Positions 24,095 through 37,648 of a stretch of 39,679 nucleotides of DNA are shown piece by piece. Origin of the DNA: Leptolyngbyaceae cyanobacterium HOT.MB2.61 (GTDB taxonomy: Bacteria; Cyanobacteriota; Cyanobacteriia; Leptolyngbyales; Leptolyngbyaceae). The notes beneath the pieces are model-generated. The model made no database searches and was not told the origin of the DNA. It saw only the letters and a program-made list of their open reading frames with translations. The stretch's first letter is position 1. Every line of letters starts with the position of its first letter. Both the position numbers and the translations under genes were made by a program. The stretch covers positions 1 to 39,679 of the forward strand of contig JAIMBL010000017.1 in assembly GCA_023511615.1 (NCBI GenBank), read 5' to 3'.

Positions 24095-25939
24095 TTAGAA
24101 TTGCCCGTAATTCTCATTGGCGTGCTTGAGTCGCTCCAATACCTCAGAAACCGGGATTGCCCCCAGTTCGCCGGAAGCGCGAGTGCGGATGCTGAGGGCG
24201 TTGGATTCCACTTCTTTGGCACCGACGACGGCCATTACGGGAATTTTGTCCTTCTCGGCATTGCGGATCAGTTTGCCGAGGCGATCGCCACTGGTATCCA
24301 CCTCTGCTCGCAGTCCCAATGCCTGCATCTGCTCAACCACCTGTTTGGCGTAGGGCAAAAACTCCTCTGCCACAGGTAACAACCGTGCCTGGATTGGAGC
24401 TAGCCACAACGGAAAGTCTCCCGCGTATTCCTCAATCAGAATTCCAATCAGGCGTTCCAGGGAGCCAAAGGGAGCCCGATGGATCATCACGGGCCGTTTG
24501 CGAGTACCATCCTCTGCTACGTACTCTAGTTCAAATCGCTCTGGCAGATTGTAATCCACCTGAACGGTACCCAGTTGCCACTCCCGGTCTAATACATCCT
24601 GAAAGATAAAATCCAGCTTTGGACCGTAGAAGGCCGCTTCCCCAATTCCTTCAAAGTGCGGTAAGCCAAGGGTTTCCACCGCTCGACGGATGGCACTCTG
24701 GGCCTTATCCCAAGCATCATCGGAACCGATGTACTTATCGGAGTCGGGATCGCGGAAACTGAGCCGGGCCCGGAAGTTTTTCAGTTGCAGACTCTTGAAC
24801 ACCGACAGGATCAGATCCACCACATTCAAAAATTCCTGATCGAGCTGCTCCGGAGTGACGAATAGGTGAGAATCATCTACCGTGAAGCCGCGCACACGGG
24901 TTAAGCCGCCCAGTTCCCCGGACTGCTCAAACCGATAGACGGTGCCAAATTCTGCCAGTCGCATCGGCAAATCCCGGTAGGAGCGGAGTTCGCTTTTGTA
25001 GATCTGGATGTGGAAGGGGCAGTTCATGGGCTTGAGTACGAAGCCCTGTTCATGCTGTTCAGATTCTTCATCCTCCGCCATCATGGGGAACATGTCCTCC
25101 TTGTACTTCTGCCAGTGCCCAGAGATTTTGAACAGATCCACCCGCGCAATGTGCGGGGTTACGACTGGCAGATAGCCGCGCTTGAGTTGTTCTTGTTTGA
25201 GAAAGTCTTCCAGGAGCGATCGCACCACTGTTCCCTTCGGTGTCCATAGGGGCAAACCCGGACCCACTGGATCGGCAAAGATAAACAACCCCAACTCCTT
25301 GCCCAGCTTGCGGTGGTCGCGGCGAAGAGCTTCTTCCTTGCGGCGCTTGTATTCCGCTAACTGCTCCGGCGACTCCCAGGCTGTGCCGTAGATGCGCTGG
25401 AGTTGGGCCTTGTTTTCATCCCCACGCCAGTAGGCTCCTGCAACACTTTCCAGGTCAAAGGCATCGGGATGAATATCCGCCGTGTTCTCCACATGCGGCC
25501 CCGCACACAGATCCCACCACTGGTCACCCAGGTGGTAGATCGTGATGGGGTCCCCCTGGATATCCGCCAGAATTTCCAGCTTGTAGGGTTCGTTGATGGC
25601 CTTGATCCGGCGTTCGGCTTCTTCCCGGCTCACCTCCTCACGAATAACAGGCAACTTACGGTTGATGATTTTGATCATCTCCTTGCGAATCGCTTTCAAG
25701 TCCTTTTCGGTGAACGGCTCCGGATTATCAAAGTCGTAGTAGAAGCCGTTTTCAATCCAGGGACCGATCGTGACTTGGGCCTTTGGAAATAGCTTTTGAA
25801 CCGCCATCGCCATGATGTGCGAGGTCGTATGGCGGATTTTCTTCAAAGATTCCGATTCACTGGTTTTGGGCAGGTGACTCTTTTCGGATGGCTCTTCAGA
25901 TGGAGAGGCTTGACTCGGTACAGATTCTTTGGCAGGCAT
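24095..25939 (-). CDS. thrS: Threonine--tRNA ligase, TGS-less cyanobacterial type
   Basis: Class II aminoacyl-tRNA synthetase charging tRNA-Thr. The N-terminal TGS domain is absent. After a Ser/Glu-rich leader the protein begins directly with the editing domain (HTTSHIMAMAV and, further on, CAGPHVENT, the HxxxH and Cys/His sites). The catalytic core shows PMNCPFHIQIY with the zinc Cys, motif 2 at RFEQSGELGG and motif 3 at HRAPFGSLERLIG; the anticodon domain follows. I start at ATG 25939, and a GTG at 25948 is equally open. No ribosome site is clear. Loss of the TGS domain is usual in cyanobacteria. Confidence 0.97.
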   Translation of the reverse strand: MPAKESVPSQASPSEEPSEKSHLPKTSESESLKKIRHTTSHIMAMAVQKLFPKAQVTIGPWIENGFYYDFDNPEPFTEKDLKAIRKEMIKIINRKLPVIREEVSREEAERRIKAINEPYKLEILADIQGDPITIYHLGDQWWDLCAGPHVENTADIHPDAFDLESVAGAYWRGDENKAQLQRIYGTAWESPEQLAEYKRRKEEALRRDHRKLGKELGLFIFADPVGPGLPLWTPKGTVVRSLLEDFLKQEQLKRGYLPVVTPHIARVDLFKISGHWQKYKEDMFPMMAEDEESEQHEQGFVLKPMNCPFHIQIYKSELRSYRDLPMRLAEFGTVYRFEQSGELGGLTRVRGFTVDDSHLFVTPEQLDQEFLNVVDLILSVFKSLQLKNFRARLSFRDPDSDKYIGSDDAWDKAQSAIRRAVETLGLPHFEGIGEAAFYGPKLDFIFQDVLDREWQLGTVQVDYNLPERFELEYVAEDGTRKRPVMIHRAPFGSLERLIGILIEEYAGDFPLWLAPIQARLLPVAEEFLPYAKQVVEQMQALGLRAEVDTSGDRLGKLIRNAEKDKIPVMAVVGAKEVESNALSIRTRASGELGAIPVSEVLERLKHANENYGQF

Positions 25940-26321
25940 AAACTTCACTCAATAAACAACAACAGACAGAGCGCAATGAAGGGATGTGAGCCTCTCAGGG
26001 GCGTGTATTCGCCCCTAGATAGTTCGCTCCCGCCTGGTTGTCGCAGCCCAGCCTTGCGATCGCTGGAAGTTATGATTTTGCAAACTCATTCCGTATGCCT
26101 GAAAAGACATGAATTTTTAGCAATCCAATCGTTTTTAGATCTACAACCTCTATCTTACTGATTCCGCCTGTACACCAATGGCTTAATTGGTCGCAAAGGG
26201 GTAGACCTAACAGGGTAGGCGCGCCATTGCAAAGAAATGCAATTTTTTGTCGCAATTCTTAAAAGACGCTAAGATATTATTAGGAAAACTTTAGATTAAA
26301 GGCATTAAGAGCCCATTTTGT
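25940..26321. other. Divergent gap between thrS and the DUF2605 gene
   Basis: About 380 bp without a gene. No T-box or other riboswitch was recognised upstream of thrS. The right part holds a candidate promoter for the DUF2605 gene (entered separately). Confidence 0.4.
26247..26275 (+). promoter_or_regulatory. Candidate sigma-70-type promoter of the DUF2605 gene
   Basis: TTGTCG (26247-26252), a 17-bp spacer, then TAAGAT (26270-26275), 46 bp before the start codon. A good spacing but moderate matches. Confidence 0.4.
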
Positions 26322-26639
26322 ATGTTTAGTTCCAACCCTCCTGATTCAGATCTGCTAAAGTCGCTTCTGGAACCATTGCTGGATGACTTTCATTACTGGT
26401 TTGAGCGCTCGCGTCAGTTGCTTGAAACTGAAGAAATTCCTTTCCTCAGCGCCGAAGAACAGGCCGACCTTCTAGACCGGGTGGTGACGGCTCAGAAAGA
26501 AGTGAGTACGACCCAAATGCTGTTCAAAGCGACCAATGGTCAGGTCGGTATCGAAGCCTCTATGATGGCTCCCTGGCATCGACTGGTCACAGAGTGCTGG
26601 CAAATTGCCGTCCGATTTCGGCTGGAACGTTCTGCTTAA
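26322..26639 (+). CDS. DUF2605 family protein
   Basis: 105 residues, a cyanobacteria-specific family of unknown function. All-helical look: LLKSLLEPLLDDFHYWFERS, then LSAEEQADLLDRV and MMAPWHRLVTECW. No membrane segment. The ATG at 26322 has no strong ribosome site. It is followed 161 bp later by a DUF2973 gene, and the pairing of these two families recurs in cyanobacteria (from memory). Confidence 0.85.
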   Translation: MFSSNPPDSDLLKSLLEPLLDDFHYWFERSRQLLETEEIPFLSAEEQADLLDRVVTAQKEVSTTQMLFKATNGQVGIEASMMAPWHRLVTECWQIAVRFRLERSA

Positions 26640-26800
26640 AATGGGATTCAGAATTTTCCAAAAATTTGCGAGACTAGATAGTGTAAGTTCGATCCAGGAT
26701 AAATCTGCCAGTTAAGCGATCGCTCCATCGTTCGATTTTCGTGCTTTGAAAAACACTGTTTCAACCTTCAGCATCACGCTGTCTGAGCGGGGAAAGCGTT

Positions 26801-27118
26801 ATGTTACTACACTTACTTTACATTCTTGCCTTTACTATCCTTGCATTATTAGCAGTTAGTAACTTGATTCGCAATTTAATGACCCTAGGGGTAGAGTCTC
26901 AGCGTGCCACCAGAGGGTGGTCACCTCCTGGGCAGCCTGGTTCGAGTTCCCGACCCGGCTCCATTCCCCATCCAGAGTTGCTTGACTCCACTGGAAATGT
27001 CATCGATGAACCCTTGCTGGTGATGCGCTCCATGAGCGTGGAAGATGCCCGGGAACAACTCGATGCGCTTTATGAATCTTCTCCAGGTTCCAGCACCGAC
27101 TCCCGTGATGATGTTTAG
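26801..27118 (+). CDS. DUF2973 family membrane protein
   Basis: 105 residues with one N-terminal membrane helix (LLHLLYILAFTILALLAVSN, residues 2-21), a Pro/Gly/Ser linker, then a conserved acidic end with PLLVMRSMSVEDAREQLDAL. Cyanobacteria-specific, function unknown. The ATG at 26801 has GGGGAAAG upstream. It ends 11 bp before the GTPase gene, so the two are surely cotranscribed; the single helix could bring the GTPase partner to a membrane (inference). Confidence 0.85.
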   Translation: MLLHLLYILAFTILALLAVSNLIRNLMTLGVESQRATRGWSPPGQPGSSSRPGSIPHPELLDSTGNVIDEPLLVMRSMSVEDAREQLDALYESSPGSSTDSRDDV

Positions 27119-27129
27119 CATCCTGGACC

Positions 27130-28449
27130 ATGTCTGAATCATCTGAAGCTCATCCTTCAGACGCTTCTCAACAACCCGACCAATCAGACCGCTCTTCTTC
27201 AGTCCAGGCTGGGATGAAGGATGGTCTATCGGACTGGATGAATGATGCTGCAAGTGGGTGGAAGCGGTTTACACCTTTTCAATGGTTGGTGAAACAGTTG
27301 ACCTCCTGGTTTAGCGTCAGCGAAGAGCAGATTGCTGAGATTCTTGAGAAGGTCAGAGCAGAACTGCCCACCACTGAAGCACTGCTGATTGGAAAACCGC
27401 AGGCAGGAAAAAGTTCCATTGTCCGAGGACTGACGAGGGTATCCGCTGAAATTGTTGGCCAGGGATTTCGTCCCCACACCCAGCACACCCAGCGATACAG
27501 CTACCCAACGGATGACCTGCCATTGCTTATCTTTACCGATACGGTTGGCCTGGGCGACCCCACGCAGGATACGGCTACACTCATCCAGGAACTTCTGGAT
27601 GAGCTGGAACAGGAGAATCGGCAGGCACGAGTTTTGGTTCTAACGCTCAAAATTAACGATTTTGCAACCGATACCCTGCGGCAAATTGCTCAACAAATCC
27701 GCCAGAAGCATCCGGAAGTTCCCTGTCTCCTGGCCGTGACCTGTCTGCATGAGGTTTATCCAGCAGAGGCGATGGATCACCCTCCTTACCCGCCGGAGTT
27801 TGCCGATTTGCAACGGGCCTTTGCCAAGATTCAGCAAACCTTTACGGAATTGTATGACCGGGCTGTGATGATTGATTTCACCCTGGAGGAAGATGGCTTT
27901 AATCCAGTCTTCTACGGTCTAGAGGAGTTGGTGAACGCGCTGGCAGACTTGCTACCGGAAGCCGAGGCCAATGCCATCTATCAACTGCTAGACACCGATG
28001 TCGGGCAGCAGCTTGGTAACCTCTATCGAGATGCTGGAAGACGCTATATCCTGCCCTTTGCCATCATGGCTGCGACTCTGGCGGCGGTTCCTCTGCCCTT
28101 TGCAACGATGCCAGTTTTGACCGCTTTACAGGTGTCCATGGTGGGGTTGCTGGGTCAGCTCTACAGGCAAACGTTAACGCCTTCTCAGGCTGGAGGGATT
28201 GTGAGCGCGATCGCCGGTGGGTTCCTAGCCCAGGCGATCGGGCGTGAGTTAATCAAATTCATCCCTGGCTTTGGCAGTGTGATTGCTGCATCCTGGGCCT
28301 TTGCCTATACCTGGGCTCTGGGTGAAACGGCCTGCGTCTACTTTGGCGACCTGATGGGTGGTAAAAAGCCTGACTCGAAGCGAATTCAGGCAGCGATGAA
28401 GGAAGCCTTTGAAGCTGGCAAAGAACGCTTTAAGCGAAAAGGTGAATGA
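27130..28449 (+). CDS. Membrane-associated GTPase with DUF697 C-terminal domain
   Basis: 439 residues. Residues 80-210 form an Era/Obg-like G domain: P-loop GKPQAGKSSI, switch/G3 region FTDTVGLGD, and a region near LLAVTCLHEVYP where the usual NKxD is degenerate, so base specificity may be reduced. From about 300 comes a DUF697-type domain with two hydrophobic hairpins (FAIMAATLAAVPLPFATMPV and GGIVSAIAGGFLAQAIG) typical of membrane-inserting GTPases. A basic tail (FKRKGE) ends the protein. It lies directly after a DUF2973 gene. The role is unknown. Confidence 0.8.
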   Translation: MSESSEAHPSDASQQPDQSDRSSSVQAGMKDGLSDWMNDAASGWKRFTPFQWLVKQLTSWFSVSEEQIAEILEKVRAELPTTEALLIGKPQAGKSSIVRGLTRVSAEIVGQGFRPHTQHTQRYSYPTDDLPLLIFTDTVGLGDPTQDTATLIQELLDELEQENRQARVLVLTLKINDFATDTLRQIAQQIRQKHPEVPCLLAVTCLHEVYPAEAMDHPPYPPEFADLQRAFAKIQQTFTELYDRAVMIDFTLEEDGFNPVFYGLEELVNALADLLPEAEANAIYQLLDTDVGQQLGNLYRDAGRRYILPFAIMAATLAAVPLPFATMPVLTALQVSMVGLLGQLYRQTLTPSQAGGIVSAIAGGFLAQAIGRELIKFIPGFGSVIAASWAFAYTWALGETACVYFGDLMGGKKPDSKRIQAAMKEAFEAGKERFKRKGE

Positions 28450-31457: not shown

Positions 31458-31655
31458 GGGTAATCCGCAAGAGGGTAAGGAGTGAATGGGCGGGGGCAGT
31501 GCCTGGGTGCCGACTCGAGAAGGGGGAAAGAAAAGGAAAATAGAAAGCCCCCGACGAAAAGCCAGGGGCGAAATCAGGGTGCATCTACCATTCCACTCTT
31601 CATTCACTCTATGGATCATCCGGAGAAAATCTTGGAAGAATCTGGAGAAAGTCGT

Positions 31656-32339
31656 ATGAAAAATCCGTATCGCTGTTCAGTCGATCTCAATCTGTATAGT
31701 TCTCCTGCTTTAGATAGCCTGGCAACCCAGGCAGCCGCGGGACGACATTTAAGGATTGTGTCGTTGCCTAACCCCGGTGAAAAGGCCGTTGAGGTTTGCT
31801 TGTGTGAAGATGACTACCCAGGCTGGTTGGATGTTCGAGATTTGAAGCAGTTGGCGGTAGCGGATAGGCCCTATCAGCCTGTACCGCTTTCAGAAGCCGA
31901 AATTCGAGCTAGAATACCCGATGCGATCGCCTTTGCTAAAAGCGCAATGGCTCAACCGAATGAGTACCTCTGGGGCGGCACCGTGGGTCCTAATTTTGAT
32001 TGCTCAGGATTGGTACAAACTGCTTTTGCATCAGCAGGGATCTGGTTACCACGGGACGCTTACCAGCAGGAAGCCTTTGTCCAGGCGATCGCCCTGGAAG
32101 ACCTTACACCCGGTGATCTGGTTTTCTTTGGAACTCCCGTTAAAGCGACCCACGTTGGCATTTATCTGGGAGATGATTGCTATATCCACAGTTCTGGCAA
32201 AGACCAGGGGCGCAATGGCATTGGCATTGATTACCTTTCTGGAGGGGACAACCCCATCAGTCAGAAATACGCTGCCCAAATTCGGGGCGCAGGACGGGTA
32301 ATAGCAGCCTACATCTCCTCCTGCCTGAACGATTTGTGA
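31656..32339 (+). CDS. NlpC/P60 cell-wall endopeptidase (gamma-D-glutamyl-L-diamino acid type)
   Basis: 227 residues. The N-terminal SH3b-like domain (about 1-75: CSVDLNLYSSPALDSLATQA, AVEVCLCEDDYPGWL) precedes an NlpC/P60 domain with catalytic C116 in PNFDCSGLV, H166 in KATHVGIYLGDD and H178 in CYIHSSG. It closely resembles the crystallised Anabaena/Nostoc enzymes that cut the gamma-D-Glu to diaminopimelate bond in peptidoglycan peptides (family knowledge). There is no signal peptide, as in those. I start at ATG 31656 with GGAG upstream; ATG 31611 is an alternative. Confidence 0.9.
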   Translation: MKNPYRCSVDLNLYSSPALDSLATQAAAGRHLRIVSLPNPGEKAVEVCLCEDDYPGWLDVRDLKQLAVADRPYQPVPLSEAEIRARIPDAIAFAKSAMAQPNEYLWGGTVGPNFDCSGLVQTAFASAGIWLPRDAYQQEAFVQAIALEDLTPGDLVFFGTPVKATHVGIYLGDDCYIHSSGKDQGRNGIGIDYLSGGDNPISQKYAAQIRGAGRVIAAYISSCLNDL

Positions 32340-35257: not shown

Positions 35258-37648
35258 TCACCTGAAAATATCCTTCTGTTTCTGAATCCAGAAGGTAATG
35301 AAAAGATAGAGAATAGCGTGTAAGCCCAGCATACCCCAGTTGAGCCAGAGGTTATGCCAGGTCGGGTCGTAAACTGCCGTTTTCTCAAAGGGTTGGGGAA
35401 CGAAACTGCCATCAGGGAGCAGGATTGGTTCTGGTACCATAGCGTTAACATTCACCAGGCTGCCATAGGCTCCTACGGACCAGCGGCTCAGCATCAACCA
35501 GGAGATTTTGTTGGCAAACCCTTCCATCCTAAACAGAACCCCGGAAAAGATGATTTGTGGCAGAAGCAAGAGGGGAAGCGCACTATTCGCCTGGGTGCTG
35601 TTGCGGACGATCGCCGAAATCATCAAACCCATACTCATACAGGCAATCAATGTCAGGAAAGTGGTAATCCCCAACCCCAATGACCAGGGCAGCAATTCTG
35701 GTTTTGGATCGGCAAACCCCATCAGAATAACCGCAACCATCAGCAGCGTTTGCGCCAGTGCCAGCCCGGCCAGAATCACCGTTTTGGAACCGAGATAGGC
35801 AAACAACCCTAGGTTAATCAATCGCTCCCGCATGTAAATTGCCGTCTCTTTGACAATTTCCTGAAGCGAACTGGAAAGACCGACCCAGAGAGCTGCACAG
35901 GTAAACACAAACAACACCCGCAGTGCCAGGGGAGCCAGTGTGGGGTCGGGCTTATCACCCAGAATCAGAGGGGCTTTGTTTTGCACCGCCAGGGTGATCA
36001 GGCCAATGGCGATTGGAGCCGTCAGCAGAGACAGAACCAGGCTTACCGGATCGCGGAGAACAAGTTGGAAGTAGCGCTGAGTCAGCAGGGAGAGCTGCTT
36101 AAAGAAAGAAGTGCCTTTGCTGGGAGAAGCAGGCGGTGGTTGCCGGGTGGCATTGCCGGGGCTGAGATGTCCGGTTACGTAACGCCAGTGGTCATCGGAT
36201 TGACGGAACTTTTCTGCCCAATAGCGAACCACCATTTCGCCCCGCTCTAACTCGTTGTAGATGTCGGCAAAGTCCCCAGAGGTAACGCCAAAGAATTCCA
36301 GTGCTCTGATGGGTGGACCAAAGTAGCAGAGCCGCCCGCCACGACCGACAAACACGATGCGATCGCAGAGTGTAATGTTTGCTGTGGCATGGGTCACCAG
36401 AATCACCGTTCGCCCCTGGTCTGCCAGTTTGCGGAGCAGTTGCATCATCTTCTTATCCAATCCTGGATCGAGCCCGGAAGTGGGTTCATCCAGAAAAAAC
36501 AGCTTGGGATCGGCCAACAATTCCACCCCAATACTGACTCGTTTGCGCTGGCCCCCACTCAGCTTATTGACCAGCACATCGCGCCGTTCTGCCATCTCAA
36601 TTTGTTCCAGGGTTTTGCTGACCACCTCATCGATATCAGTATCAGCAGGAAGCCGCAACTTCGCCGCATAGATCAGCACCTCTGCAACGGTCAGTTCCCG
36701 ATGCACAATGTCATCCTGGGGCACGTAACCAATCTGGGAACGGTAAATGCCAAAGTTGCTGCGCAGAGCATTGCCATTCAAATACACCATACCTTTGTCG
36801 GTGGGATCAAGGCCCAGCAGGGTTCTCATCAAGGTTGATTTACCTGCACCACTGCCACCCACTAAGGCCACAAACTGCCCCGGTTCAATTGCCAGCGAAA
36901 TCCCATCCAGTAAGCGGCGGGTCTGGTTCTGCCGATCTTTCACTTCCCGTACCAGATCCCAGGCATCCAGGCGAATCTGATTGCCCCGATCCACCACCTC
37001 CAGGATGTCTCCCCGCAGAACCAGGGTGAAAGGGCCAATCTGGACACTGGACCCTTCGCTCAGGTAAGCACTGCCGTTAACCCGCTCATTGTTGATGAAC
37101 ACTCCATTGGTACTGTGATCTCGCAGGATGTAGCGTCCGGTGCCATCGGGTTCAATGGTGGCATGGCGACGGGAAACGATGGGTGCTTCCAGTTGCAGGG
37201 TGGCCTGGGGATCACGCCCCAGTAGGACGGATCGATTTTTGAGCGATAGCGATCGCTTCTCTGGCATTTCCGCTGCTTCTGCACCGAACGGATTGCGGTA
37301 GGTCAGCACGATTTGACTACGGGGATTCTGCCCAATTCGTAGTTCAGTCCCATGCTTAAGTGGATAGCCCTTTGATGGAGTGATGCGAGTCCGGTTAATA
37401 AACAACCCGTTTGTGCTAGGCTTTTGACCATCGCCATCATAAATGCAATAGTCTTCCCCTTCACGCCGTAGCAGAGCATGGCAGCCGGAAATAATCTGCC
37501 AGTCACTGGGCACCAGCAAATCTGAGCGGCAGGGATCTCGCCCCAGAAAATGTTGCTCCTGAGTGAGAAAGAGTTGAATGGCATGCCCCTGGTTAGTGAG
37601 TTCCAGAAAGGGCTGAGTGAGGACGGTTTTCTGCTCAGGGGTGGGCAT
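35258..37648 (-). CDS. ABCG-type half transporter with two FHA domains
   Basis: 796 residues. Two FHA domains come first (about 20-115 and 125-215). The second has the classic LLGRDPQATLQL, SRRHATIE and DHSTNGVFINNERV, and the first is diverged but keeps STNGLFINRT. Then an ABC ATPase: Walker A GGSGAGKST, signature LSGGQRKRVSIG and Walker B LFFLDEPTSGLDPG. The C-terminal third is an ABC-2 membrane domain with about six helices. FHA domains bind phosphothreonine, so export may be controlled by Ser/Thr kinases. The substrate is unknown. ATG 37648. Close relatives are common in cyanobacteria. Confidence 0.93.
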   Translation of the reverse strand: MPTPEQKTVLTQPFLELTNQGHAIQLFLTQEQHFLGRDPCRSDLLVPSDWQIISGCHALLRREGEDYCIYDGDGQKPSTNGLFINRTRITPSKGYPLKHGTELRIGQNPRSQIVLTYRNPFGAEAAEMPEKRSLSLKNRSVLLGRDPQATLQLEAPIVSRRHATIEPDGTGRYILRDHSTNGVFINNERVNGSAYLSEGSSVQIGPFTLVLRGDILEVVDRGNQIRLDAWDLVREVKDRQNQTRRLLDGISLAIEPGQFVALVGGSGAGKSTLMRTLLGLDPTDKGMVYLNGNALRSNFGIYRSQIGYVPQDDIVHRELTVAEVLIYAAKLRLPADTDIDEVVSKTLEQIEMAERRDVLVNKLSGGQRKRVSIGVELLADPKLFFLDEPTSGLDPGLDKKMMQLLRKLADQGRTVILVTHATANITLCDRIVFVGRGGRLCYFGPPIRALEFFGVTSGDFADIYNELERGEMVVRYWAEKFRQSDDHWRYVTGHLSPGNATRQPPPASPSKGTSFFKQLSLLTQRYFQLVLRDPVSLVLSLLTAPIAIGLITLAVQNKAPLILGDKPDPTLAPLALRVLFVFTCAALWVGLSSSLQEIVKETAIYMRERLINLGLFAYLGSKTVILAGLALAQTLLMVAVILMGFADPKPELLPWSLGLGITTFLTLIACMSMGLMISAIVRNSTQANSALPLLLLPQIIFSGVLFRMEGFANKISWLMLSRWSVGAYGSLVNVNAMVPEPILLPDGSFVPQPFEKTAVYDPTWHNLWLNWGMLGLHAILYLFITFWIQKQKDIFR

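Follow-up and report, generated by a model that had tools for sequence, protein, structure and literature searches.

The window analyzed here is a stretch of 39,679 nucleotides from Leptolyngbyaceae cyanobacterium HOT.MB2.61 (contig JAIMBL010000017.1), and its locus at positions 26,322 to 28,449 encodes a DUF2605 protein, a DUF2973 protein and a GTPase with a divergent DUF697-like C-terminal membrane domain. In this study, two units that appear to be independent of each other, the DUF2605-DUF2973 pair and the GTPase, were seen to meet at this locus, and the GTPase was found to be inherited together with a second GTPase, called c7 here. The reading that we favor, and consider reasonably probable, is that the GTPase and c7 make up a two-GTPase membrane module and that the DUF2605-DUF2973 pair stands on its own. 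For the study of membrane remodeling in cyanobacteria, a co-inherited pair of membrane GTPases offers a concrete target for a double knockout. A 2023 review names FtsZ, the CURT1 homologue Slr0483, the dynamin-like protein Slr0869, IM30 and PspA (PMC9950537), and no pair like the GTPase and c7 is named in the portions of that review available to us, which include part of its table of Synechocystis proteins. Our literature searches found nothing on the GTPase-c7 pair.

Results

Co-occurrence was counted in 80 of 89 genomes of the class Cyanobacteriia, with G042, G048, G072, G076, G093, G153, G155, G163 and G169 omitted as near duplicates, fragmented assemblies or small genomes of family f19. 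GTPase orthologues scored at least 171 bits and other matches at most 69 bits; we treated a match in G177 (E 4e-19, 33% identity) as paralogous, which sets the number of GTPase genomes at 50 and not 51. Of the 80 genomes, 49 have both the GTPase and c7 and 30 have neither; one genome (G051) has the GTPase only, and none has c7 only. This concordance of 79/80 was reached by 1 in 200,000 shuffles within families. A larger sample of 291 genomes of the class, which overlaps the 80 and in which the 4 to 5 best candidates were scored per genome, gave 155 genomes with both genes, 6 with the GTPase only, 3 with c7 only and 127 with neither (Fisher's p 1e-70, descent ignored). Among the discordant genomes, completeness is 87% or less in G240, G250, G349, G372 and G399 (G250 has a c7 fragment at a contig end), G358 is 92% complete and in 610 contigs, and G417 is in 1,060 contigs.

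The two genes also recur as neighbors. At least 12 genomes, from families f5, f10, f20, f23 and f26, have them side by side on the same strand, with the GTPase gene leading. The gap between the ends of the two matches is 21 to 410 bp in at least 11 genomes and 8 bp in G123; distances were measured for 20 pairs picked by eye among the matches listed, and the 11 neighbors are a lower bound. A scan of the genomes of 84,980 species found 485 relatives of the GTPase, the best 80 of which were analyzed, and c7 lies within the flank (up to 10 kb) in 8 of these 80 named loci, downstream and on the same strand in 8/8. It was from a gene clustering of 61 stretches, which yielded few recurrent neighbors of the GTPase, that c7 had emerged, being present in 5 of them and immediately behind the GTPase in two. 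No third gene was found to recur widely beside the pair.

A shared pattern of presence could also come about if both genes were merely dispensable in the same lineages and did no joint work, and both are indeed missing from 10/10 members of the small-genome family f19 among the 80. However, concordance is exact inside the mixed families f6, f11, f12 and f13 (with one exception in f7), both genes are also missing from genomes of 6.7 to 7.3 Mb (G039, G099, G129), and their adjacency recurs in one order. Set against these observations, dispensability appears very unlikely as the explanation of the pattern.

A possible trace of loss was seen in G153, which is without c7 and carries a GTPase remnant of 103 residues with 80% identity (G153:C70:18959-19267). 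Two further genomes of its genus, G149 and G155 (the latter in 1,110 contigs), are without the GTPase and c7. Such a pattern would suggest that the pair was lost inside a single genus.

The c7 protein has about 640 residues. Its N-terminal hydrophobic segments, found by hydropathy, are interpreted by us as a pair of helices, and they are followed by a central G domain at residues 298-409/636. MMR_HSR1, Dynamin_N and IIGP were matched by the G domain in 8/8 members, and Dynamin_N reached 48.3 bits against a cut-off of 27 in the L040 copy, where the best stretch spans only part of the profile. Its motifs, taken from 8 sequences, are GRTG[A/S]GKS (G1), DTPG (G3) and TQVD (G4), with TQAD or THSD as G4 in distant copies. 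In the window genome (G000), c7 is an open frame of 655 residues on a separate contig, C376.

The initial annotation had described the window protein as a GTPase with a DUF697 domain and a degenerate G4 motif. The GTPase assignment holds, with an MMR_HSR1 (PF01926) score of 33.9 bits against a cut-off of 21.9. The DUF697 (PF05128) match of the window protein scores 20.5 bits and is thus below the threshold of 27.7; the tail nevertheless reads as a divergent DUF697-like domain, because in an alignment of 18 orthologues that includes the window protein 17 match DUF697 at E<=1e-3 (best 1e-8) and the orthologue L055 passes the cut-off, if barely, at 28.3 bits. Hydropathy places the hydrophobic stretches of the GTPase within about residues 302-393. 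In alignments of 18 and 31 sequences, G88, K89, Q91, G93, K94 and S95 of G1 are invariant, as are D137, T138 and G140 of G3. G4 is indeed altered, a His replacing the guanine-reading Asp of NKxD. Among the named relatives, taken as the best 80 of 485, residues 204-208 read TCLHE in 73, TSLHE in 6 and TCVHE in 1, so that Thr204 and His207 are common to 80/80; the alteration is therefore a fixed state and not random decay. The form T-[C/S]-x-H was found in 32 of 34 GTPase rows from the window and the sampled genomes, and the remaining rows, L061|7 and L067|9, are paralogues that were excluded from the orthologues. Judged from the sequence, the exchange of Asp for His would change the nucleotide choice of the GTPase.

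Dynamin_N was not matched by the window GTPase at E<=0.01. Searches of PDB sequences with the GTPases returned G-domain matches plus unrelated weak ones, and beyond the class the phylum sample yielded only paralogue-level GTPase matches (10 genomes, at most 53 bits). In one orthologue (L055:7008-9143, + strand, genome G051), a Ser/Thr protein kinase domain is fused ahead of the GTPase in a single open frame, and G051 is one of the few GTPase genomes without c7. In the literature, as far as the sources were available to us, no treatment of function was found that names DUF697 with cyanobacteria or a GTPase; in one paper a DUF697 gene serves as the target of a PCR. The Synechocystis tag slr1462, considered as a possible GTPase gene, led nowhere, and one paper labels its product a hypothetical protein.

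DUF2605 and DUF2973 form an old, independent pair of Cyanobacteriia. Both window proteins are full-length members of their families, with 150.7 bits against a Pfam cut-off of 25 for DUF2605 (profile positions 2-95/96) and 98.9 bits against 22.2 for DUF2973 (positions 1-68/68). DUF2605 was found in 79/194 genomes of the phylum, all of them within the class of the window. In the 80 sampled Cyanobacteriia, DUF2973 is present in 80 and DUF2605 in 72, and among the 72 genomes with both genes there are 64 in which the two lie at most 2 kb apart, on one strand and in a constant order. An additional 18 genomes of the class contain DUF2973 in 17 cases and DUF2605 in 13, and the pair is adjacent by coordinates in 13/13, including G198, in which the DUF2605 frame is interrupted by stops. 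This brings DUF2973 to 97/98 genomes of the class, and it was absent from 10/10 genomes of other classes. DUF2973 is thus a good target in its own right, being found in nearly all the class genomes sampled and in none of those 10 genomes.

In line with the initial annotation, the hydropathy scan found no hydrophobic segment in the DUF2605 protein, which fits a soluble protein, and a single one, at the N terminus, in the DUF2973 protein. From this anatomy and the adjacency of the genes, DUF2973 is probably a one-helix membrane anchor for DUF2605, and its conserved tail would most likely be the part that recruits the soluble DUF2605 protein. PDB sequence searches gave no credible match for DUF2605 or DUF2973, and our literature search found no paper naming either. 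A divergently oriented threonyl-tRNA synthetase gene recurs upstream of the pair, in 11/28 stretches around DUF2605 or DUF2973 as well as in the window, L043 and L049.

Two ~3 Mb genomes of genus g46 have DUF2973 frames with two stops (G183:C1:1053791-1054021) and one stop (G147:C1:1063830-1064042); the gene looks decayed in both, and the family match still scored. The most divergent DUF2973 proteins among the 18 additional genomes, at 48-52 bits, belong to family f44 (G202:C1:2635493-2635666, G213:C1:545926-546099), which is without DUF2605, the GTPase and c7 and is possibly an early-branching lineage.

We then have to ask how the GTPase relates to this pair. The three window genes had been proposed to form one membrane-remodeling system, and at the locus itself they are co-directional by their open reading frames, with a gap of 11 bp between DUF2973 and the GTPase. 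DUF2973 also directly precedes the GTPase in 11/80 named loci, 10 of them with DUF2605 (L111 has none beside its DUF2973 and GTPase); these loci are from Tildeniella, Leptolyngbya, Stenomitos, Phormidesmis, Pantanalinema and others, mostly Leptolyngbya-like by name. Conservation of the neighborhood was borne out for DUF2605 and DUF2973 and failed for the GTPase: only 3/50 GTPase genomes have it at most 20 kb from DUF2973, namely G000, G185 and G060, which belong to the family of the window genome, with DUF2605 missing from G060. Moreover, the GTPase is absent from 23/72 DUF2605 genomes. Across the 80 genomes, 49 have both the GTPase and DUF2605, 23 DUF2605 only, 1 the GTPase only and 7 neither; this association is weak (Fisher p 0.004), and it counts for the three-gene system and against the independence of the two units. 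It is mainly a matter of family f19, a small-genome family that has no GTPase in the sample and supplies 6 of the 8 genomes without DUF2605. Within families the association vanishes, a concordance of 56/80 being reached by 13,417/20,000 shuffles, in a test of low power because DUF2605 varies in few families. The gap between DUF2973 and the GTPase is not conserved either, ranging in the 11 named loci from 34 to 204 bp when taken as the distance between the stop codon of DUF2973 and the first position of the GTPase match, which is off a start codon in four. Promoter and terminator candidates were not clearly in excess over shuffled sequences. Because the neighborhood is not conserved, we reject a single three-gene system, which we regard as highly improbable.

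A narrower proposal is that, in the window's family, the GTPase was recruited under the promoter of the DUF2605-DUF2973 pair, as a lineage-specific coupling to an older unit. The same-strand adjacency in G000, G185, G060 and the 11 named loci would fit such an event; the gap, however, ranges from 11 to 204 bp, and G060 and L111 are without DUF2605 alongside, and we think recruitment of this kind quite unlikely. As for other neighbors of the GTPase, DUF4336 (cluster c5) was present in 6/32 GTPase stretches, on the opposite strand in 6/6, and in several Nostocales loci. Clusters c4 (response-regulator-like) and c6 were considered as partners of the GTPase and looked promiscuous. The features of the window locus are collected in Table 1.

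Table 1. Coordinates of the window locus, its protein segments and the gene upstream
Feature	Position	Strand	Description or basis
DUF2605 gene	26322..26639	+	105 aa; Pfam PF10792 1.2e-44; opens the DUF2605-DUF2973 pair
DUF2973 gene	26801..27118	+	105 aa; Pfam PF11189 1.7e-28
DUF2973 hydrophobic N-terminal segment, residues 1-32	26801..26896	+	Kyte-Doolittle scan
DUF2973 conserved tail HPELLD..G....EPLLVMRS..VEDAR..LD.LY, residues 57-91	26969..27073	+	25-sequence alignment
GTPase gene with divergent DUF697-like C-terminal membrane domain	27130..28449	+	439 aa; MMR_HSR1 3.7e-8
GTPase G1/P-loop GKPQAGKS, residues 88-95	27391..27414	+	alignments of 18 and 31 sequences
GTPase G3 DTVG, residues 137-140	27538..27549	+	alignments of 18 and 31 sequences
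GTPase altered G4 TCLH (versus N/T-K-x-D), residues 204-207	27739..27750	+	80 named relatives
GTPase hydrophobic DUF697-like region, residues about 304-393	28039..28308	+	hydropathy and DUF697 matches in relatives
Threonyl-tRNA synthetase gene	24095..25948	-	Pfam; divergently oriented, upstream of DUF2605; outside the module

Elsewhere in the window, a single copy of the Rfam family NsiR1 was found at 31540-31590 on the minus strand (45 bits against a cut-off of 39). Its first 18 bases equal the consensus and are followed by a GC-rich stem and a U-rich end, and it is antisense to the start of an NlpC/P60 frame at 31482-32339, in which domain matches set in only at residue 71. According to the part of the source available to us, NsiR1 is an RNA specific to heterocysts, and Nostoc sp. 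PCC 7120 has 12 copies of it in tandem, upstream of hetF (PMC9045159). The closest named GTPase relatives of this NsiR1-bearing genome, among the best 80 of 485, are mostly Leptolyngbya-like. The product of a further frame, at 35258-37648 on the minus strand, matches the FHA domain twice and also has an ABC ATPase and ABC-2 membrane domains.

Discussion

The co-inheritance of the GTPase and c7, their recurrent adjacency and the order of the two genes point to functional coupling, which we consider likely on this comparative evidence. A membrane GTPase module of cyanobacteria, as the initial annotation had envisaged, does seem to exist; its second member is the c7 GTPase and not DUF2605 or DUF2973. 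Both GTPases have hydrophobic segments and would meet at the membrane. Given their motif states, c7 would be the GTP-hydrolyzing member, and the window GTPase, in which G4 has a fixed His and the C-terminal domain is hydrophobic, would be a membrane-inserting regulatory partner. GTP-driven hetero-oligomerization of the two could then bend, fuse or stabilize the cytoplasmic or thylakoid membrane. That membrane remodeling is the job of the pair is a tentative proposal, which we would call doubtful at present; membrane repair and stress signaling are further candidate outputs. Bolder, and in our judgment unlikely, is the idea that the two form a dedicated cyanobacterial hetero-GTPase machine at the thylakoid or plasma membrane, separate from Vipp1, CurT and the dynamin-like proteins described so far, in which the window GTPase would have lost guanine recognition for good (His for Asp in G4) and would serve as the membrane-inserted activator of c7.

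Several observations weigh against the favored reading, in addition to the GTPase-DUF2605 association and the subthreshold DUF697 match of the window protein given above. G042 and G051 are good assemblies that have the GTPase and are without c7, and they are true exceptions. The two genes lie apart in most genomes measured, with no c7 within ~8 kb in 27/32 stretches, and in G237, G393 and G027 c7 is near the GTPase on the opposite strand. Co-loss of the GTPase and c7 could follow genome streamlining. A diverged copy of either gene could be missed in the 291-genome counts, because the 4 to 5 best candidates were scored. AlphaFold, given 31 and 8 sequences for the two GTPases, returned models of too low confidence to be used (pLDDT 50.6 and 48.0).

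The pair could also be a membrane-stress or signaling pair and no remodeling machine, in the manner of YcjX-YcjF of E. coli. YcjX, a DUF463 protein, and YcjF are a GTPase and a DUF697 membrane protein that are encoded as a gene pair, DUF697 being the YcjF domain. Our E. coli control genome matches PF05128, and one GTPase orthologue (L055) is fused to a Ser/Thr kinase. In the available part of one study, ycjX and ycjF rise in phiX174-infected E. coli and are Psp-associated (PMC8125068). Against this explanation, DUF463 was not among the Pfam matches of c7, and we hold a signaling pair to be possible, on the unlikely side. The likeness of the two-GTPase module to YcjX-YcjF is that a GTPase is paired with a DUF697 membrane protein; the difference is that here the DUF697-like domain is fused to the GTPase, and that the partner c7 is IRG/dynamin-like.

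Among other systems, the interferon-inducible GTPase structures 9n2s and 9n2q were matched weakly in PDB searches by the profiles of both the GTPase and c7, and the likeness of both proteins to the immunity-related GTPases (IIGP/IRG) is limited to the G domain and the adjacent part. Matches of c7 to LeoA/LeoBC are partial and lie around the G domain (positions 73-180/601 and 37-155/559), with no full-length match found. The window genome itself encodes other DUF697 proteins, two on contig C111 and one each on C92 and C333, with strong DUF697 matches of 127-194 bits. These likewise combine a GTPase or decayed GTPase with DUF697, and the G4 motifs of the C111 pair are NKQD and NKID; the window GTPase is a distant subfamily relative to them. 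The C111 genes (G000:C111:46704-48858; L032 and L034) overlap, one with DUF697 and a decayed GTPase part and the second a Dynamin_N/MMR_HSR1 GTPase with DUF697, and they are possibly another two-protein GTPase module.

The nearest described case is that of the Tandem A and Tandem B cyanobacterial bacterial dynamin-like proteins (cBDLPs; NosDLP and its neighbor), which are encoded by side-by-side genes and for which hetero-oligomerization has been proposed (PMC5827413). In the part of that study available to us, the cBDLPs have their G domain in the N-terminal region, nearly all carry the P-loop GxxxxGKS/TxL/INALL/I, and an HSR1 clade is described in which the gene after the dynamin-like one encodes an HSR1 GTPase (PMC5827413). 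c7 may be among the 279 raw Dynamin_N hits of that study or in its HSR1 clade. Like the GTPase and c7, Tandem A and B are two adjacent cyanobacterial membrane GTPases. Unlike the cBDLPs as described there, c7 has a central G domain behind two N-terminal hydrophobic segments, and its P-loop GRTG[A/S]GKSSLIN[T/S]LF (8 sequences) departs from the extended cBDLP P-loop, whereas the window GTPase is set apart by its altered G4 and by a G domain that Dynamin_N does not match at the threshold used.

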